A stretch of DNA of 31,519 nt, from positions 1 through 31,519 of IMG/VR virus record IMGVR_UViG_3300045738_000107. One strand, given 5' to 3'. Below are positions 118-8,929 of the stretch, piece by piece. Under the pieces are notes generated by a model. It had not been told where the DNA came from and did no database searches. It saw nothing but the letters and a program-made list of their open reading frames with translations. Origin of the DNA: a virus. A program made the position numbers and the translations under genes. Positions within the stretch are counted from its first letter, which is position 1, and each line of letters starts with the position of its first letter.

Positions 118-2550
118 TCAGACTCCCTTCACGTCATAGATTAGAACGCAGCGACATCGCACTACGTTCTCCGCGCTTCCCTCTGGATCGAGCGGGCGCA
201 TCATGCGCTCGTCGTTCACAAGGAAGGGCTCGTTCTGTAGAACCGTTCTGCGGTTCTCTCCCGTTTGGTTCTTGATGTTCTTGGCCTTGTGATGCTCGCG
301 GGTTCTTTCGTCTTGCGTCGGCACCCAGGTCTTGAGAACGTCAAGCGTCGGGTTCTCGTCTGCGAACACTTGGCTGTTGTTGAACTTGCCCGCGTTGTAT
401 GAGCCAGCCGTCTCGGTGCGTGCGATGGTTTCAGCGCGCACGCCTTTGAACTTGTTGAAGTCTTCACGCAGCCGCTTCGCGAGTTGGTCGATGCTTTCGT
501 TGGCTTCGAGTGACTCTCCGAGTACGCGCCTCACCTTCAGCTTCGTCGTGTCGCTGATCTTCGTGATCTCCTTCGCAGAGTGTTTGCGAGCCCACTCCAT
601 CACCGAGTCAGAGATCAGATCGAACTCGATGAGAAGTTCGGGAGCCACCTTCGCAGCGATCTCGGAAGCGAAGGCTTCGTGGCCTGCGGCGAACTGGTTG
701 ATCGCCTCCTCCTCGATGATGCGTGCCATCTCTTCATTGAACCCGTCGATGACTGCATCGAGCGCAACCTCCGAGGCGCGGACCTCGACGACCTTGCCCT
801 TCGCTCGCTCGCCCTTGACGGCAGCGACGACAGCCTTCGACATCTTCGTGAAGACGGCGCGCAGTCTGCCCTTCATGCGGCGCTCGCCATCGCCCTGGGA
901 GTTGAGGAAGCGGAGCGCGGTGATCTCGATCTGCTCGTCACTCGGGTCTTCCAGCTCGCGGTCATCGGCTTCGATATCGACTTCGATCTCGATGGCTTCG
1001 AGTGCGCGGTCTACCGCTGCGGCTGTCTCTTCCGGCTTGTTGACTCCGGCGTTGCTCGCGGGTCCAAGGATGCGAAGCGCCTTCTCCATCGACATCCCGA
1101 ACGCGGACTGGATGATCTCCAGCGCCGAGGCATACGGGAGCGATCCCGTCATCATCGCCGTCACGACTTGGATCAGCGAGGTGACTTGAGCGCCGTTGAG
1201 AACTGTCTCGGGTGCGATGCTCTCGCCGACCTTCGCTTCGCCTCTGGCGGCGTCATCGGGTGCGATGGTCGGCACGTCCTCGAAGGCGGGAGATGGTCCG
1301 CTCACCGACATCGGGGCCATGCCTGTCTCGGGGTTCTCGGTCACGGTCGAGCCCATCGGGACGAAGAACACCGCGCCGTTGCCGCCTGCTTCGGGCTCGA
1401 AGCCGATGCGTTCTCGGTACTCGTCCATCGTGATCGCGCCCTTGCCGAAGGCTGTCTCGGCAGAGATGCGCTCGAACTCCTTGTCGGCAACATCGACGGG
1501 ATCGAACTCGAAGCTGTATCGCGTCGGGTCGAGTCCGATGCGCGGGAATAGCTTATGAGTGATTGGCTCCTCGTATCGCTTCAGTCGAGGGCCGAGACAG
1601 AGCGCCGAGTAGACTCGATCCGCTTCCTCGCCGTTCGCCCTGGAGCTGTCCTCGATCAGTCCGATTCGGCTGGCTGGGATGTGATAGGCGGCGAGGATCT
1701 GATCGCGACTGACACGAGCGAGACTCAAGAACTCCAGATCCTTGATGTGAGCGGAGAGCGATTGGAATGTCGCACCCTTGCCGAGTACCTGGATCTTCTC
1801 TGTTCCCTGATGCGAGTCCTGCCAACCTTCGGCGAGGAGTGCGGCTTGGTCGCGAGTCAGCTCGGCTTCGGTCGTGAGGATGCCGGTCGGCATCGCGTGA
1901 TTGCGGAGATGGCTCGCAGCATAGGCTCGCGAATAGGTGTCCATGTCCACGCTCATCGCTACGGCGCGAACGGGCGAGATGCCTCCGGTCGGGTCCACCG
2001 GATCGGGATAGCGGAACAGGATGACATCCTCGGCGGGGAGGACGCGGCGCGTTGATCCCGAGACGTTGATCTCCCAGCCGGTCAGCATGGTCTTGTCCTT
2101 GTTGTAGACGGCCTTGTTGATCCAGTCGGGGTTCAGCGGTTGGATGCCGACCACTCGACCACTCGAACCGGGTGCGGTGACGAGATGCCAGAAGGCTCGG
2201 CCTGCGAGGTCGAGGTGCGTCTGGCTGACCTCGATCAAGTCGCCCCATGTCTGAGTCGCCGAGGGTCGAAGAAGGATGTCGGGTATCTGCGAGCCTTCGA
2301 GCTTCTTCCAGTCCTTGCGGCTGTTGCCTGCGCGTTGCCAGATCGACCAGCTTGACGAGCGAACGTCTTGGCTGATGGTGGAGACGCAGGCATAGATCCA
2401 TCCCGAGTAGGACTTCAGCGCATCGCCGTCCGTCTTGATCGGGTCGGTGTCGTAGGCTTCCTGGTTCAACAGGCGAGCGAGCGAGAAGCTCATCCCTCCG
2501 GTCGGCTGTGGAACCTCGGCGGCTCGTTGTTTCGTCTCGAAGATGCTCAT
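118..2550 (-). CDS. Portal protein fused to Mu gpF-like head morphogenesis domain
   Basis: This 810-residue protein has two parts. Residues about 20-420 are an HK97-type phage portal (SGWIYACVSTISQDV near residue 48, then the ring-forming core), which forms the DNA entry vertex. Residues about 640-805 match the Mu F/SPP1 gp7 minor head domain, ending in the typical GSAENVVRCRCVLIY. The middle, about 430-640, is acidic and helical with no family I recognise. Portals of this family are usually about 400-500 residues and MuF is usually a separate gene, so this is a fusion. The start ATG overlaps the terL stop by 4 bases (ATGA), implying coupled translation. Confidence 0.93.
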   Translation of the reverse strand: MSIFETKQRAAEVPQPTGGMSFSLARLLNQEAYDTDPIKTDGDALKSYSGWIYACVSTISQDVRSSSWSIWQRAGNSRKDWKKLEGSQIPDILLRPSATQTWGDLIEVSQTHLDLAGRAFWHLVTAPGSSGRVVGIQPLNPDWINKAVYNKDKTMLTGWEINVSGSTRRVLPAEDVILFRYPDPVDPTGGISPVRAVAMSVDMDTYSRAYAASHLRNHAMPTGILTTEAELTRDQAALLAEGWQDSHQGTEKIQVLGKGATFQSLSAHIKDLEFLSLARVSRDQILAAYHIPASRIGLIEDSSRANGEEADRVYSALCLGPRLKRYEEPITHKLFPRIGLDPTRYSFEFDPVDVADKEFERISAETAFGKGAITMDEYRERIGFEPEAGGNGAVFFVPMGSTVTENPETGMAPMSVSGPSPAFEDVPTIAPDDAARGEAKVGESIAPETVLNGAQVTSLIQVVTAMMTGSLPYASALEIIQSAFGMSMEKALRILGPASNAGVNKPEETAAAVDRALEAIEIEVDIEADDRELEDPSDEQIEITALRFLNSQGDGERRMKGRLRAVFTKMSKAVVAAVKGERAKGKVVEVRASEVALDAVIDGFNEEMARIIEEEAINQFAAGHEAFASEIAAKVAPELLIEFDLISDSVMEWARKHSAKEITKISDTTKLKVRRVLGESLEANESIDQLAKRLREDFNKFKGVRAETIARTETAGSYNAGKFNNSQVFADENPTLDVLKTWVPTQDERTREHHKAKNIKNQTGENRRTVLQNEPFLVNDERMMRPLDPEGSAENVVRCRCVLIYDVKGV

Positions 2551-3818
2551 ACGAAGACCTGCGCTCCGGGGCTCGTTGTTAGTTCAGTAGCCGCCCACAC
2601 GAACGCATCGGCTGAGTCAGGCGAGCCGTCTGCCTCGTAGCCTTCGAGCGAGAACGATGCGAGCTGGTCTTCGAGCTTCTCCATGCCTGGAAGCGTGTGC
2701 GCCTTGCTCTGCTCGAAGAGTGAGAGGATCGGCTGCGCTCGAACGTGCTTTCCTCGGGTCGCCGTGACCATCGTGATCGGGACGTTCTCGTCCACGCTGC
2801 GGATCGTGTGTTCGCACATCGCTCCCCCCTGGTTCTTCTCGACAACGATGGTGTCGGCCTCGAACTCTCGGTAGGCGTCAATCACGCGCCGAGCCCAACC
2901 GGCAGGGCCGAGACGACAGGAGCGGTCTGCAAGCGCATAGAGATCGCCATCGACGCCCTTGCCGACGACGACGATGCCGGTGTGATCTGAGTTCTCGCCT
3001 GAGCTGATGGCGGGATCGACGCCGACGATGATGCGGCCCAGGTCGGGAGCTTCATCGACGCGGAGGATCTCGATCTGCTCGCGAGTGAGGACAGCGCCAT
3101 CCACGTCGTCGAGGACTTCAGCGTGGATCTCCTGCCGCCCGAGACGGGTGCCTTCGTAGCGGCGCACGATCTCCTCGATGAACTGCGGCGCGAGGTTCGC
3201 AGCGTTGTCGTAGGTCGAGCCTCGCACCACCACGCAGTCATCTCGATTCAGCAGCTCGCGAATGATCTTCGTCGGGCGCGGTGTCGTCGTGACCATCGCT
3301 CTCGGGTTGTTGCCCAGTCGCAGCGCGAAGAGTGCCATGTCCCAGGCTGATGGATACTTCCACGCGGCCAGCTCGTCGGCCAGGAGTAGGTCGGCGTTGA
3401 CACCGCGCAGCCGGTCGGGTTCCTCGCTGGAGTAGAGCCCGACCGTTGCTCCGTTCTTCCATGTTAGGCGTCTCTTGCTTGGCTCGTAGAGCGGACGATC
3501 CCAAGGCGGGCAGACAGTGAGCAGCCCGCTCGGCCCTTCGACCAGAGTGTCTCGAAGGTCGGAAGCGGTTGCCGCCACGATGATCGCCCGAGATGTTCTT
3601 CCGCTCTCGATCTGTGCGCGGACCCACTCGGTCCCTGCTCGCGTCTTGCCCCAACCGCGACCAGCGCAGGCCATGAAGTATCGGTGCGGTCCTTCGGGTT
3701 CGAGCTGATCGGGTCGAGCCCATAGCGGCCACTCGTATCGGGCAGCGGCTTGGATGTCGGGCGTCGAGGTGAGGATGCTCTCGCGAACGTCGGAGCGTGC
3801 GACCATCGGGGCGCTCAC
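2547..3818 (-). CDS. terL: Terminase large subunit
   Basis: The 423-residue packaging motor has both expected domains. The ATPase shows Walker A AGRGWGKT (52-59), Walker B LLLADE (144-149) and a coupling motif TTTPRP (177-182). The RNase H-like nuclease shows acidic residues in GVDP (266-269), VVEKN (E327) and SADAF (D404). It drives DNA into the prohead and cuts concatemers. The start is GTG at 3818, overlapping the small-subunit stop as GTGA with GGGTGAT upstream. The packaging strategy (cos or pac) cannot be read from the sequence alone. Length is normal for the family. Confidence 0.96.
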   Translation of the reverse strand: MSAPMVARSDVRESILTSTPDIQAAARYEWPLWARPDQLEPEGPHRYFMACAGRGWGKTRAGTEWVRAQIESGRTSRAIIVAATASDLRDTLVEGPSGLLTVCPPWDRPLYEPSKRRLTWKNGATVGLYSSEEPDRLRGVNADLLLADELAAWKYPSAWDMALFALRLGNNPRAMVTTTPRPTKIIRELLNRDDCVVVRGSTYDNAANLAPQFIEEIVRRYEGTRLGRQEIHAEVLDDVDGAVLTREQIEILRVDEAPDLGRIIVGVDPAISSGENSDHTGIVVVGKGVDGDLYALADRSCRLGPAGWARRVIDAYREFEADTIVVEKNQGGAMCEHTIRSVDENVPITMVTATRGKHVRAQPILSLFEQSKAHTLPGMEKLEDQLASFSLEGYEADGSPDSADAFVWAATELTTSPGAQVFV

Positions 3819-4255
3819 GAATCATCACCCAGCATTCGACGCAGCTCCTCGGCTGCGACTTGCATCTCGGCGTTCATGTCCACTTCGGCGCTGATCTCAT
3901 GCTTCGAGACTTCGGGCCAGCCGCGTCGGATGTAGTGACCGAAGGCGGCATCGTTCTTTCGCTTGAGTAGCTGGTCAACGAATATCTCGGCGAGCATCTC
4001 TCGCTTGGTAACGCCGTGATTGGGAAGCTGTTTATCGAGTGCGCGGTTCACCAGCGTCTCGAAGCTAACTCGACCGCCGCCCCTCGGCCCACCATTCGGG
4101 TTCCCGCTCTGCCCCTTCTTCCAGGGCGGTCGGAGATTGCCGTTGCCAGTCTTATCCGTCAAACGCGATTCCCGGTATGTTGCTCGGTGCGGCTGACACC
4201 GAACGAAAGCCAAGCGCCCCGAGCGAACTCGGTTCGTCCTCACCGGGTAGCTCAT
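3815..4255 (-). CDS. Terminase small subunit-like protein (DUF5681-type N-terminus)
   Basis: The protein carries LRPPWKKGQSGNPNGGPRG, the KGQSGNP motif of DUF5681-type proteins that commonly sit directly before terL and are taken as DNA-recognition small terminase subunits. The rest is helical and charged. The start is uncertain. The ATG at 4255 directly abuts its GGAGG motif (no spacing), and residues 1-31 are Arg-rich and unlike a protein. A TTG at 4162 (LTDKTGNGN) has GGGA six bases upstream and gives a 115-residue protein with the motif near the N-terminus, as is usual in the family. I favour 4162 but give the longest frame. Its stop overlaps the terL GTG. Confidence 0.75.
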   Translation of the reverse strand: MSYPVRTNRVRSGRLAFVRCQPHRATYRESRLTDKTGNGNLRPPWKKGQSGNPNGGPRGGGRVSFETLVNRALDKQLPNHGVTKREMLAEIFVDQLLKRKNDAAFGHYIRRGWPEVSKHEISAEVDMNAEMQVAAEELRRMLGDDS

Positions 4256-4439: not shown

Positions 4440-5399
4440 TCAAAGCGCCAACCGCAAGAACTCGGAACGGCCTGCATCTTCTCGAATCACTCCGTAGGTG
4501 GCTGAAGTCACCATCGTTGCACCCTGCTCTCGAACTCCTCGACAAGTCATGCAGGAGTGGACGCCCTTCACGACCGCGCCCGCTCCGAGAGGTCGCAGCT
4601 CTGGATGATCCATGAGGAACGATGCCACTTGATGCGTAAGCCGTTCCTGTACCTGGAAGCGCCGTGAGAAGGCATGAACGATCCTCGCGATCTTCGAGAG
4701 TCCGATCACCCTACCTTCGGCGGGGATGTATCCGACCGATATTGTTCCGGTGAACGGGAGTAGGTGATGCTCGCAAAGCGAAACGAAGTCAATGTTCTGT
4801 AGAACGACCATCTCGTCGGCGTTCTCTTCATAGAAGACTTTGCACAGCTCCATCGGATCGACGCGATAGCCTTCGGTCATCTCTGCGAAAGCCTTAACAA
4901 CTCGTTTCGGCGTTTCGATCAGCCCTTCCCTGGTTGGATCTTCTCCAACTCGTTCAATGATACGAACCACGGCGTCCTCTGCCGACTGCTCAGAGTCATC
5001 GCCCATCGTCAACTCCCAAGGAAAGACAACCCAGTCGTCAATCTCTTTAGCTTCCGGTGCGCGTTCCTTTGGTGAGTGCGGCTTTCGGATCAAGGCATCG
5101 AAGTAGGCGTCACAGCCATAGTCGCCGCCCTCGATTGCCAGAGCAGCTCGCTCTGCCGTTCTTCCTGAATCAACCAGATCGTCAACAACAACTCCGGCGA
5201 ACATGATGTCATCGACGAGTTGATAGCCGGGGAAGGAACAGGCAAGCATCGCAGCAACGATAGAACCACCTCTCGGGATTCCGTACAACCCTATTGCCAG
5301 CCCATCTCGGTTAAGAGTCTCTACCATAGTCTCGATCTCAATACGTTCGTTGAGTTTAAGAACGAGACGCTCAACATCTTCCCACGTCAAGGTCTTCAT
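4440..5399 (-). CDS. folE: Phosphoribosyltransferase-GTP cyclohydrolase I fusion
   Basis: This 319-residue protein joins two enzymes. Residues 1-130 are a type I phosphoribosyltransferase: GIPRGG (40-45), the PRPP loop VVVDDLVDSGRTA (70-82), and WVVFPWE (123-129), which resembles the purine-contacting WIEQPW of E. coli Gpt. Residues about 135-319 are GTP cyclohydrolase I, with zinc ligands C209, H212 and C283 and H281 in HSCMTCRGV; it makes dihydroneopterin triphosphate, the first step to preQ0. The ATG at 5399 overlaps the queE stop (ATGA) and has GGAG upstream, so I prefer it to the ATG at 5414. The fusion suggests guanine salvage feeding the pathway, which is inference. Confidence 0.93.
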   Translation of the reverse strand: MKTLTWEDVERLVLKLNERIEIETMVETLNRDGLAIGLYGIPRGGSIVAAMLACSFPGYQLVDDIMFAGVVVDDLVDSGRTAERAALAIEGGDYGCDAYFDALIRKPHSPKERAPEAKEIDDWVVFPWELTMGDDSEQSAEDAVVRIIERVGEDPTREGLIETPKRVVKAFAEMTEGYRVDPMELCKVFYEENADEMVVLQNIDFVSLCEHHLLPFTGTISVGYIPAEGRVIGLSKIARIVHAFSRRFQVQERLTHQVASFLMDHPELRPLGAGAVVKGVHSCMTCRGVREQGATMVTSATYGVIREDAGRSEFLRLAL

Positions 5400-6010
5400 C
5401 GGGCTCCGATCCACTTATGGACTTGAAGTGATAGCCTCCAATCCGGGTTCTCAAGGACGAGCTTCTGACACCACGCGACTGCATCTCTGTCAATCGACTG
5501 CCCTCTGAATGCTGGTGAGATGAGCTTGTGATCGGCCTTCGCCGAGGGTTTCGGAATCCCTTGCCCGACATTCCTCACATACTTCAGCTCTGAAACCTTC
5601 TTAGTTCGGATGGCGTGTTCTGCAATCTTCGGCGACAGCGTGATCCAATCGAGCCCGAGTCCGCTGACATCGAACGTCCCGTTCGTTTCGATAGCGGTGT
5701 GAGCGCCTGCATCCTTGAATGCTTCAACGAGTTCCGCATCGAGTTGAAGCCCTGGTTCGCCGCCCGTAAAGATAACGCCTGGAACAGAGCCGCCCGTCAA
5801 TGACTTGGCGACATTCAGGATCTCCTCGCCTGTCAGCGACCGACCGGATACGAACTCGGTGTCGCAATCGAAGTCGGCGTTGGGTTCTTCGTGGCCTCGA
5901 TGGCAATCCATGTTACAACCGCTGAAACGGACGAAGACATTAGGCGTTCCCATGCGGACGCCTTCACCCTGTACCGAGTAAAAGACTTCATTGATTCGGT
6001 ACTTGTTCAT
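5396..6010 (-). CDS. queE: 7-carboxy-7-deazaguanine synthase QueE (variant Cys spacing)
   Basis: The 204-residue radical-SAM enzyme converts 6-carboxytetrahydropterin to 7-carboxy-7-deazaguanine. Residues FYSVQGEG (10-17), FTGGEPGLQ (81-89) and ETNGT are typical of QueE. The cluster cysteines are C32, C36 and C49, that is CX3CX12C, instead of the usual CX3CX2C; the segment 37-46 is an insertion before the conserved FDCDTEF. Longer spacings are known in some QueE proteins (Burkholderia multivorans has CX14CX2C), so activity is likely kept. It overlaps the queD stop as ATGA, with AGAGGTG upstream. Confidence 0.95.
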   Translation of the reverse strand: MNKYRINEVFYSVQGEGVRMGTPNVFVRFSGCNMDCHRGHEEPNADFDCDTEFVSGRSLTGEEILNVAKSLTGGSVPGVIFTGGEPGLQLDAELVEAFKDAGAHTAIETNGTFDVSGLGLDWITLSPKIAEHAIRTKKVSELKYVRNVGQGIPKPSAKADHKLISPAFRGQSIDRDAVAWCQKLVLENPDWRLSLQVHKWIGAR

Positions 6011-6417
6011 CGAGACACCTCTGACCAGCAGTTCGGCGTCTCATAAAGTCGCAACCGAACTACCATCAGCTCTGGAAGAAGCTCCTTCGCCTTCTCGAAA
6101 AGCAGCTCGGCCATGTTCTCGGCTGTCGGGTTCGAGTCCATCAGAAAGAACCGCCACCCATTCACTTCGCAGAGCTTCGCAACGTCCTGGTCGGCATCGA
6201 AGAGGATGCAGCCATGATCAAGATGTTCGTCCACCCATCCACCGAACACTCTCTTCATCACGCTAAAGTCGATCACGCGACCGAGCGAGTCGAGTTCTCC
6301 TCCAACAGTCAGTTCGATCTTGTATCGGTGTCCGTGAAGGTTCCGACATTTCGACTCGTGTTTCATTACGCGGTGCGCGGCATCGAACTCGATCACTCGG
6401 GTACAGTTCGGCATCAT
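6007..6417 (-). CDS. queD: 6-carboxytetrahydropterin synthase QueD
   Basis: This 136-residue protein of the PTPS/QueD fold converts dihydroneopterin triphosphate to 6-carboxytetrahydropterin. Zinc ligands H15 (FDAAH), H28 and H30 (LHGH), the catalytic C24 (KCRNLHGH), D67/H68 (LDHG) and E126 (ETP) are all present, and the length matches bacterial QueD. Two adjacent ATG codons (6417 and 6414) are possible starts; the first overlaps the upstream stop, and GGAG lies 4-7 bases before them. It lies between the FolE and QueC functions in one transcript. Confidence 0.95.
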   Translation of the reverse strand: MMPNCTRVIEFDAAHRVMKHESKCRNLHGHRYKIELTVGGELDSLGRVIDFSVMKRVFGGWVDEHLDHGCILFDADQDVAKLCEVNGWRFFLMDSNPTAENMAELLFEKAKELLPELMVVRLRLYETPNCWSEVSR

Positions 6418-6863
6418 GCGACTCCATTCGTCATCGTGTTCTTAGTAAGCCACCTGAGTTGCTTTCCAATGCCAAGACCTTTCATCGGCACATCAATATG
6501 ACAACCCATCCTTTCTAATGGAGGAATAAGAAATTCTCTGTATCGTTTACCAGCTAGAAACACAATCGACATCGACACATCAAAGACATCAAAGAAATTT
6601 AGTTGAAAGAGGACACGCTTCGCCCATAATCGCCTGTCTTGAATTTTCATTGTGTTTAATGTTTTGTTGTAGGGTTCGATAATCTGATTTGAATCAAGCA
6701 GTCCGTACTTGGCGGATAATATATACCAGCGCGGTGGATTCACTGACTCAATATAGGATCTAGCTTTCAAGAACCAATCGGACTGATATAGATCCTTGGC
6801 AGCAACTGCGTTATTTAATTTTTGACCAACGCAAGACACGAAGTAGATCGGTTCATTCTGCAT
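6414..6863 (-). CDS. DUF6884-like protein in the 7-deazaguanine cassette
   Basis: A 149-residue protein with an N-terminal strand YFVSCVGQK, then WYILSAKYGLLDSNQIIEPYNKTL (about 47-70) and a central hydrophobic segment VSMSIVFLAGKRYREFLIPPL. The pattern C-x2-K near the start followed by SAKYGLLD and PYxxTL is that of DUF6884-type proteins, which have no assigned function that I can state. The gene is clearly A+T-rich: positions 6601-6720 have 48 G+C of 120 (40%), against 36 of 60 in a typical early gene stretch (12241-12300). It is coupled to queC (TAATG) and queD (ATGA), so a role in making or placing the modified base is likely but unproven. Confidence 0.8.
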   Translation of the reverse strand: MQNEPIYFVSCVGQKLNNAVAAKDLYQSDWFLKARSYIESVNPPRWYILSAKYGLLDSNQIIEPYNKTLNTMKIQDRRLWAKRVLFQLNFFDVFDVSMSIVFLAGKRYREFLIPPLERMGCHIDVPMKGLGIGKQLRWLTKNTMTNGVA

Positions 6864-7528
6864 TACACGACTCCCTTCGTCATCGGATCAACGACACCAG
6901 CCTTGGCGAAGGCTTCGATCCGCTCTTGGCAGGAGCCACACTTGCCGCAATGACGGTCGCCGCCCTTGTAGCACGTCCATGTCAACTCCCAAGGAACTCC
7001 GAGCTTCTCGCCAAGCGAAACGATCCCGCCCTTGTCGATGTCAATGAATGGGCGAAGTAGTCGGATCTCGTTCCAGTCGCAGAGCTGCGCGGCAAGATCC
7101 ATCACGGTAGCAAACGACTCCCGACAGTCTGGGTAGATTGCATGATCGCCAGAGTGTGCGCCATAGGCGACAGTACCGGCACCGATGGAGATCGCGTGCC
7201 CGATACCGACCGCAAGCATGATCATGTTCCTATTGGGCACAACGGTTGCTTTCATCGACTCCTCTTCGTAGTGACCTTCCGGCACTTCGATCTCGGGCGA
7301 AGTCAACGCGCTGCCCGCCAGGAGAGAGGTCAACGAAGTGAGATCGACCTTCTCCCACGCCAGACCCTTCCCGAGACAGAGCTGCTCGGCAGCAAGCAGT
7401 TCCCTCTTATGGCGTTGTCCGTAATCGAACGACAGGCACTTCAACTCATGCCCTTGATCGAGTAGGTGGTAGACCATCGTGGCCGAATCCATCCCACCCG
7501 AAACGATTGCAACCGTGTCCCAAGTCAT
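6863..7528 (-). CDS. queC: 7-cyano-7-deazaguanine synthase QueC
   Basis: The 221-residue ATP-dependent enzyme turns 7-carboxy-7-deazaguanine into preQ0. It shows the PP-loop SGGMDS (10-15), VVPNRN (96-101), and the zinc cysteines C186, C194, C197 and C200 in [15 protein letters not shown]. No amidotransferase domain is fused to it, so the expected product is preQ0 itself and not an archaeosine-type base. The ATG at 7528 has GGAGGGAC two bases upstream and overlaps the dpdA stop as ATGA; the ATG at 7540 would put the Shine-Dalgarno inside the gene and is rejected. Confidence 0.96.
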
Positions 7529-8382
7529 AAGTCCCTCCAAAAATTTAGAGCGTTCACAGCCATCACAAGCTCAAAGCCACCATCGCATGATGATATTGCA
7601 ACGAATACCCTCGTTCCGTATTTCCTTTTCATGTCCAGCGCCCACAAAACATTCGCCCTCGAACACAATCTTTCGATTGCCAAATCTCCCTTATGAGAAA
7701 CCCGACTCCAATGCTTCTCCTGCGTCAACTCTCGCGGATCTACACCATGAAAACGGATAGCCCTACACACCTCGTCGCTCGGCCTCTTGACGAAGTCTTT
7801 CCGCATGAGTGAAATCATCTTCCCACGCCCCATGTAAATAGGAACGAAGCCGTATCTGTACCCCATCGAGAAGTTAGAGGAGTCCACCGAGTAGGGTTTG
7901 AAACCTTGGATAAATCCAAACCTCGTAAAACCAAGCCAATGAACCTTCCGATCACCGACGTAGCGCATGATGCCTTTTACGAAACCCTTATTCCCCTTCG
8001 TCCCAACGAGCCCACCGATAGCAACGAGGTCGCTCGTCTCGTAGTAGCGATCCAACTCGGAGACATCTTCTCCTCTGGTGAATATCGGGATCGGCGACAG
8101 TCCTCGCTCAAGCATCCGTTCGTAGTTCTTTCTCGTTCCTTCGCTGTCTCCAATCACGTCTAGCGTGAAATACCGTTCCGGCTGCGGCTTCAACGCTTCG
8201 ATCCAATCGCAGTATTCATCCACGTCGAGAACATCACCGGCCTTCCAGGCAGTAAAGGCACCAGAATCTACGAAAACATTGATTAGTGAACGATTCTCTG
8301 ACCAGACCTTTAGGTATAACTCCGTGCAGTACGGCCAAGCTACCAATACGTTGAGCTTTGAATCAGCGTATCTTGACGGCAT
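7525..8382 (-). CDS. dpdA: DpdA-like DNA 7-deazaguanine transglycosylase
   Basis: A 285-residue protein of the TGT-like DpdA type found in phages with 7-deazaguanine DNA. Visible landmarks are [11 protein letters not shown] (37-47, equivalent to the DSGGF of tRNA-guanine transglycosylase), AIGGLVG (121-127), VHWLGFT (147-153) and [15 protein letters not shown] (164-178). D39 and D167 are the candidate catalytic acids. It should exchange guanine in DNA for preQ0 and release free guanine. The longer frame to 8592 is discarded because its first 70 residues are an out-of-frame reading of the ParB gene; ATG 8382 has GGAGGG seven bases upstream. It overlaps the ParB gene by 20 bases. Confidence 0.88.
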
Positions 8383-8929
8383 CCAAGAACCCTCCGGCCT
8401 TGACCGCCTCGACGATGATCTGGCGAACAGCTTCGGCATCCACCTGGGCACACTCGACAACGACCTTCGACTCGATCCCGTCCGTATGTTCCTTGATGTC
8501 ATCGAGATCGAAGTCGGTGTTCCACTCTTCCAGATCCTGCGCCATCGAGTCGAGCATCTCTGCAAGTCCCTCGCTCTGAGCATCGAGATCACTCAGCAGT
8601 TCCTTGAGCTGCTCTTCGTTCTTGGACGCCATCGCACCAATCGGATCAATGGTCGCCAGGAGTAGATCGGCCTCGGCCTCGTTGACATCGAGAACGAGAA
8701 CGGGCCACTCGGTTGCGTCATCCATCTCGGTGCGAAGGTGTCCGTCGATCAGCTCCAGGCCGTCGTCCGTCTCGCGAGCAATCAACGCCCCAGCGATGCC
8801 GACCTCATCGAGAACGCCACCGAGCGCCTTGCGTTGATCGGCTGGATGCTCTCGCCAGTTCTTCGGGTTCGCCTTCAGCTCGGAGGCTGGGACGCGGCGC
8901 AGTTCCTTGACTCGATCTCTCCAGTTCAT
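8363..8929 (-). CDS. ParB/Srx-domain protein, possible DpdB-like partner
   Basis: This 188-residue protein starts with a ParB N-terminal/sulfiredoxin-like domain: LKANPKNWREHP (18-29), then LELIDGHLR (58-66), where GHLR is the ParB box II position (usually GHRR or GERR). The second half is acidic and helical. Many phages carry such proteins without a known role. Here it directly precedes dpdA, with a 20-base overlap. In bacterial dpd islands DpdB is a ParB/Srx-type ATPase that works with DpdA, so a DpdB-like role is an attractive inference, not shown by sequence. The start has GAGGAG five bases upstream. Confidence 0.85.
   Translation of the reverse strand: MNWRDRVKELRRVPASELKANPKNWREHPADQRKALGGVLDEVGIAGALIARETDDGLELIDGHLRTEMDDATEWPVLVLDVNEAEADLLLATIDPIGAMASKNEEQLKELLSDLDAQSEGLAEMLDSMAQDLEEWNTDFDLDDIKEHTDGIESKVVVECAQVDAEAVRQIIVEAVKAGGFLDAVKIR

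Follow-up and report, generated by a model that had tools for sequence, protein, structure and literature searches.

A ParB-fold gene paired with phage dpdA, a candidate exchangeable adapter for DNA-modifying enzymes

The ParB-fold gene that overlaps dpdA in the virus record analyzed here (31,519 bases; hereafter, the window) is a conserved partner of this kind of DpdA and, judged from sequence comparisons, its C-terminal tail tracks the enzyme whereas its N-domain does not. By a narrow balance we favor reading this ParB as an exchangeable adapter by which DpdA is kept on phage DNA as on a tether, a role that would fall to a replication clamp in another DpdA lineage. The reading draws on gene order, conservation, co-segregation of tail and enzyme, cassette exchange, folds, and a split between a clamp motif and ParB.

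The window locus and the ParB–DpdA pair

On the minus strand of the window the ParB gene is followed by dpdA, queC, a DUF6884 gene, queD, queE, folE, and the terminase genes (Table 1). An ORF check bore out the 20-nt overlap of the ParB gene and dpdA (8363–8382) described in an earlier, sequence-only reading of this DNA. The dpdA start was taken as the ATG at 8382; the listed 355-aa ORF (GTG at 8592) begins upstream of any homology.

Table 1 Features of the window locus discussed in the text
Feature	Position	Strand	Basis or remark
ParB-fold gene, putative adapter	8363..8929	-	ATG start, 188 aa; PHROGs, AlphaFold model
ParB N-domain (residues 1-131)	8537..8929	-	common, exchangeable part; GHLR = Box II-like motif (R66), D95-P96 at Box III region
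ParB C-terminal tail (residues 132-188)	8363..8536	-	DpdA-type tail
dpdA, predicted DNA 7-deazaguanine transglycosylase	7525..8382	-	285 aa; C-terminus NFWRDL, not clamp-like
queC (7-cyano-7-deazaguanine synthase)	6863..7540	-	PF06508 E 5.8e-61
DUF6884 gene, weakly DpdC-like	6414..6863	-	PF21818 E 7.7e-48; DpdC models E 8.4e-6
queD	6007..6417	-	PTPS E 7e-31; QueD-like in PHROGs
queE	5396..6010	-	QueE-like radical SAM, 1e-29
folE (GTP cyclohydrolase I) with extra N-terminal phosphoribosyltransferase-like part	4440..5414	-	PF01227 E 1.2e-63
Exchangeable cassette: ParB tail, dpdA and que genes	4443..8615	.	DNA comparison with nearest relative L001
Gene preceding terL, TerS-like by position only	3815..4255	-	gene order
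Terminase large subunit, conserved flank downstream of cassette	2547..3818	-	sequence comparison

The window DpdA matched the queuine tRNA-ribosyltransferase family of PHROGs (E 3.8e-31), whereas Pfam gave no match for it, NCBIfam gave no family above cut-off for it or for the window ParB, and a DpdA profile search in PDB sequences did not find TGT. With the DpdA model, VIA-align 2 put TGT (Z 13.5, 3.3 Å over 232 residues) and the bacterial DpdA 7ui4 (Z 13.3, 3.7 Å over 237) first, whereas plain Foldseek put other folds on top. An HMM of window-type DpdA matched the DpdAs of phages 9g and CAjan (E 9.6e-30 and 8e-29, respectively). The dpdA product is thus a TGT-fold DpdA homologue, predicted from these matches and the model to be a DNA 7-deazaguanine transglycosylase. 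The modified base may be dADG instead of dPreQ0, as suggested by the weak likeness of the DUF6884 gene to DpdC (E 8.4e-6). A DUF6884 gene inside the que operon recurs in some relatives. The N-terminal phosphoribosyltransferase-like stretch of folE matched PHROGs 8995 (E 1.9e-6), with a Pfam score under cut-off.

Relatives fetched by DpdA alone comprised 91 loci, or 80 distinct contigs after 11 contig repeats were dropped, and duplicate DpdAs and ParBs were removed ahead of counts. A ParB-fold ORF lies directly upstream of dpdA, nearly always overlapping it, in 77 of the 80 viral contigs, a count that takes in L155, where a frameshift makes the two genes read as a single ORF, as well as L058 and L171 (frameshift-split dpdA). 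The other three contigs end within 190 nt of dpdA, one of them keeping the ParB tail, and wherever the upstream sequence was readable among the 80 contigs no window-type dpdA without ParB was seen. These counts exclude a chance pairing and uphold the proposal of a conserved, dedicated ParB partner for this kind of DpdA. A natural ParB–DpdA fusion was considered for L155 and rejected in favor of a frameshift, because translation across the join puts the conserved tail in the wrong frame. A tandem dpdA pair stands behind a single ParB in L056 (7998–9646) and likewise in L179.

In contigs from bacteria and archaea, the five closer DpdAs (L221–225) all had ParB upstream, L228 had a ParB-like ORF overlapping the 3' end of dpdA, and no ParB was found at the DpdA loci L226, L227, L229, and L230. 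ParB is at or near the operon head in the phages Bipper, Arbiter, CRB2, Sonali, Sour, Funsized, Nicole72, and Saguaro, and directly downstream of dpdA in phiSM. Actinophages (CRB2, the Rosebush group, Sour, and Sonali) resemble the window in that queC-queD-queE-folE are headed by a ParB-fold gene that overlaps dpdA or lies close to it, but their DpdA is ~30% identical, their ParB tail is of another type, and in several of them R66 is replaced by T. Arthrobacter phage Sonali also has an annotated second, shorter DpdA-like gene (L064 987–1604) apart from the que operon.

The ParB fold and its relation to bacterial DpdB

The window ParB matched ParB-like/DNA methyltransferase families in PHROGs (E 1.6e-8 and 5.7e-10); Pfam ParB_N matched 37 of the 56 proteins of the ParB alignment and missed the window ParB itself. 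Its AlphaFold model (mean pLDDT 90.1, pTM 0.68; residues 146–149 below 50) has a ParB fold, as the sequence-only reading had supposed for the 188-aa protein, with CDP-bound ParB as the best structural match (6sdk_A; Z 13.1, 3.4 Å, 131 residues aligned). Nucleotide-bound ParB and Noc (Z 12–13) were followed by sulfiredoxin (8–9; Srx 6ky4, Z 9.1) and the serine kinase SerK (~7; 5x0b, Z 6.9), and SspE and BrxU reached only Z 2.5–4. DndB and DpdB are not in the VIA match list for this model, an absence that excludes nothing.

The protein shares with canonical ParB/Noc CTPase clamps this fold and the G..R phosphate-binding motif of Box II (G63 in 172 of 172 sequences and R66 of GHxR in 162 of 172), with window R66 aligned to the arginine of canonical GERR. 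It differs from them in having no dimerization domain, no parS-binding HTH in the 188-aa model, and an altered Box III, where the canonical EN is replaced by DP (95–96) in the window-type N-domain. CTP, ATP, or GTP can be the ligand of divergent ParB-CTPase folds, and these folds require the Box II arginine, according to the accessible text of Kaljevic et al. 2025 (PMC12704722).

In the bacterial dpd island L239, dpdC, dpdB, dpdA, a second dpdB, and dpdD were all identified by PADLOC models, and dpdB overlaps dpdA by 4 nt, so the layout seen in the window, a ParB-superfamily gene overlapping dpdA, occurs there too. Membership of the phage protein in DpdB is not supported. None of the 56 phage ParBs, the window's included, matched DpdB models at E ≤ 0.1 (nothing at E ≤ 1 for the window ParB), while both DpdBs of the island, serving as positive control, matched PDLC02811 (1.5e-136 and 8.3e-124) and 45 of the 56 phage ParBs matched one type II methyltransferase model. 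Bacterial DpdB belongs to the same ParB/Srx superfamily, but it is about double the length, carries a DGQQR motif, and forms a separate family. An hhalign comparison paired window DGHLR with DpdB DGQQR at a probability of 52%, with similarity at superfamily level around GHxR/GQQR only. By family models, then, the phage ParB found with DpdA is not a DpdB. In L239 (4385–7858), dpdA is flanked by two dpdB genes.

The phage ParB could still be a functional equivalent of bacterial DpdB, powering or licensing preQ0 insertion by ATP hydrolysis. The shared superfamily, the 4-nt overlap in the island, and the weak profile similarity near the G..R motif speak for such a role, and ParB ahead of DpdA in mycobacteriophage CRB2 is already in print, where the accessible text reads ORF1 as a DpdB homolog. 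We nevertheless regard it as unlikely: beyond the family result, this N-domain occurs with enzymes whose chemistry requires no such help. The ATP supply proposed in the sequence-only reading becomes improbable for the same reason, because the same ParB N-domain serves methyltransferases, Mom, TET/JBP, and glycosyltransferases. Moreover, 9g DpdA made modified plasmid DNA in E. coli without ParB (Hutinet 2019, accessible text), so DpdA chemistry does not generally depend on ParB.

Partner enzymes, tails, and cassette exchange

The first ~131 residues of the window ParB recur in its relatives, whose sequences differ sharply beyond that point. For the partner census we used the best 80 of 564 ParB relatives plus the first 45, a non-random sample; partners were named by Pfam on representatives and then assigned by tblastn to 98 distinct ParB ORFs. 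Within this sample the window-type N-domain has nine partner classes: N6/N4 methyltransferase (n = 31, nearly all fused), Mom (n = 16), C5 methyltransferase (n = 13), TET-associated glycosyltransferase (n = 9), DpdA (n = 9), TET/JBP (n = 9), PAPS-reductase-like (n = 3), ABC-GNAT (n = 3), and an FkbM-like methyltransferase (n = 1), with four ORFs without class. About one third of the relatives in this sample (again the best 80 of 564 plus the first 45) are in-frame ParB–methyltransferase fusions (PF02195 + PF01555). These fusions are the nearest sequence kin of the window N-domain (72% over residues 1–141 in L001) but are joined to their enzyme, whereas the window ParB is stand-alone with a DpdA-type tail.

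In the same selection (best 80 of 564 plus the first 45), counted without the window, L066 (its ParB coming from the phage search), and L182 and L208 (fetched by their DpdA), 6 of 94 ParBs have DpdA as partner. The sequence-only reading had named, as one half of what would count against its proposal, a ParB family common in phages lacking DpdA and having no dpdA linkage. The family is indeed common without dpdA, 88 of the 94 ParB-fetched ORFs being of that kind (three of them without assigned partner), yet window-type dpdA was not seen without ParB wherever the upstream sequence was readable.

The tail, rather than the N-domain, predicts the partner. Over 94 ParBs (the 98 ORFs minus four without assigned partner), the nearest neighbor gave the correct partner class for 82 by tail and for 32 by N-domain, against a chance expectation of 18%. 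When proteins fused to methyltransferases were also omitted, the tail predicted the partner of 49 of 61 stand-alone ParBs and the N-domain that of 18; shuffled controls for these 61 had a mean of ~10 and maxima of 21 and 20. Five of the 12 stand-alone ParBs mis-assigned by tail are DpdA-linked with rare tail types. Among 66 distinct type I ParB–DpdA pairs (window-type DpdA), tail distance correlated with DpdA distance (r 0.70; partial 0.68 given the N-domain), while N-domain distance did so with r 0.25 (partial 0.08), and the N-domains of these pairs belong to widely differing subfamilies (mostly ~20% identity to the window ParB over the whole protein). In L088 and L133 the N-domain can be identical and yet be followed by unrelated tail and enzyme. 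At the L088 locus, two ParBs that differ in their tails precede TET/JBP and a C5 methyltransferase, respectively, but in L004 and L080 a single ParB stands for two enzymes.

An exchangeable domain on a constant enzyme recalls specificity subunits, and ParB might accordingly read sequence or strand context and choose the guanines to be exchanged; the different restriction enzymes resisted by Rosebush and CAjan DNA, as given in the accessible literature, fit that idea. But N-domains 98–100% identical serve N6/N4 and C5 methyltransferases as well as glycosyltransferases, that is, enzymes acting on different target bases, and the model has no HTH, so we consider such a subunit quite improbable. 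A regulator of cassette expression or toxicity, comparable to DndB repressing dnd, is more doubtful again. ParB is the first gene of the operon, and DndB is a ParB-fold repressor (PMC12704722, accessible text), but a regulator accords poorly with in-frame methyltransferase fusions, with a tail that co-varies with the enzyme, and with a model devoid of a DNA-binding HTH. The partner enzymes and the gene order led us to set aside a role in plasmid partition.

DNA comparisons placed the exchange point at the end of the N-domain. Similarity ended 5–44 nt past it and returned downstream of the enzyme in all nine compared pairs, one of which is Mom against Mom of another type. Between the window and L001, whose TerL is 90% identical, similarity stops at ParB codon ~105 and returns at the end of folE, and L001 holds a methyltransferase half where the window has the tail and the dpdA-que cassette. 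Because tail and enzyme are DNA neighbors and travel together, their co-segregation is also expected from linkage and by itself is no proof of docking. The breakpoints would also suit an N-domain that is just a homology arm for swapping modification cassettes beside the terminase genes. We give this reading very little credence, since the reading frame is preserved and the DpdA-linked ParBs of unrelated phages, only ~20% identical, are nevertheless present wherever the upstream sequence is readable; DNA homology cannot explain the retention of ParB at that identity.

Two ParB genes flank a PAPS-reductase-like enzyme in L086 (80–2418) and L096 (1150–3482), an arrangement that we take to resemble phosphorothioation-type or IbrAB-type pairs. 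A double ParB domain in a single ORF lies ahead of a TET-associated glycosyltransferase in L009 (1125–2189) and L123 (2414–3472).

Clamp motifs and the proposed tether

C-terminal peptides with the consensus QxxLF bind the beta clamp, as in Pol II, Pol IV, and Hda. Of 17 whole phage records searched, nine carry ParB, and none was found in those of 9g, CAjan, Dp-1, MMDA13, RHEph04, Ssp-JY38, ytsc, and VspDsh_1. The eight ParB-less DpdAs end in LF or LF plus 1–2 residues (e.g., QMELF, QRRLF, and IQGLF), whereas ParB-linked ones do not. The beta-clamp gene dnaN comes next after dpdA, or is separated from it by no more than two small genes, in seven of these eight records; in the remaining one, Dp-1, it is the third gene past dpdA. 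The description of phage systems with DpdA alone is true of the 9g/CAjan type, in agreement with the accessible text of Hutinet 2019 and with whole genomes devoid of ParB; the window type has ParB in 77 of 80 contigs. The two types are homologous, and differ in that 9g and CAjan have genomes without ParB, a DpdA with the C-terminal LF motif, and dnaN beside dpdA.

The LF ends were first spotted by eye and then tested on a newly fetched set of 70 distinct ParB-less DpdAs, 67 of which have a complete C-terminus. Among these sequences, which share ancestry, 62 of 67 end in LF, and the other five show QELY, QQDLF, QQDLY, or DLF in the last nine residues; none of 78 distinct ParB-linked DpdAs ends in LF, and the base rate is 99 of 3086 ORFs of at least 150 aa. 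ParB was found at none of the 70 DpdA loci of the new set, and dnaN lies less than 1 kb from dpdA in 58 of the 62 loci with enough sequence. In the bacterial and archaeal set (L221–L230), fetched earlier and regardless of the clamp question, the ParB-less L226, L227, L229, and L230 end in RLSLF, NNLGL, NTLFPL, and TKLFKMF, respectively, the NLGL of L227 not being LF, and dnaN adjoins dpdA in L227 and L229; the ParB-linked L221–225 and L228 have no LF-type end. A strict pattern that also missed LF ends found no clamp motif in the small proteins between dpdA and dnaN.

ParB and the clamp-like motif are thus mutually exclusive in the DpdA sets examined, a split that may rest on few independent events because DpdAs of the clamp type and of the ParB type mostly group as clades. 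From its C-terminal motif, 9g-type DpdA is a predicted beta-clamp client, and the activity of 9g DpdA in E. coli is compatible with reliance on a clamp.

In the adapter reading, the N-domain, a ParB-CTPase-type fold without HTH, would probably bind nucleotide and DNA or other ParB copies, and might slide along DNA or hold it topologically, as a clamp does. The partner-specific tail, given its co-variation with the enzyme, probably docks DpdA, and the tethered DpdA would exchange guanine along the genome for a preQ0-type base made by the neighboring que genes. The tether would be generic, phages combining one ParB domain with a variety of tails and enzymes, and in the other main DpdA lineage the sliding clamp appears to serve instead, via the C-terminal clamp-binding motif of DpdA. 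More tentatively, and as a possibility we would not yet favor, base modification at large may be tethered by either of two interchangeable rings, the beta clamp or a ParB-fold NTP-switch clamp with enzyme-specific tails.

Parts of this picture are in print. ParB–methyltransferase fusions are known, and Kaljevic et al. 2025 list ParB-CTPase folds fused to phage methyltransferases (PMC12704722, accessible text); the terms DpdB, DNA modification, and Mom are absent from the accessible main text of that paper, and no discussion of gene pairing with DpdA was found there. The accessible text of the CmoX paper (PMC12783734) describes ParB genes adjoining CmoX enzymes and notes ParB domains that accompany phage DNA-modification enzymes, as neighbors or as fusions, as being of unknown function. 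Neither the partner-specific tail nor the clamp/ParB split turned up in the literature we searched, although parts of them may exist in key field papers outside our search. If true, the adapter model would explain the ready exchange of modification chemistries among phages. A constant ParB domain with a partner-specific tail, together with the clamp-motif exclusion, makes the docking part and the nucleotide used testable, as well as a coupling of base exchange to replication that would hold for only one of the two DpdA lineages.

The ParB of Cellulophaga phage phiSM (L245 1782–2246), which overlaps the dpdA upstream of it, itself ends in SVNLF, a clamp-binding-like sequence.
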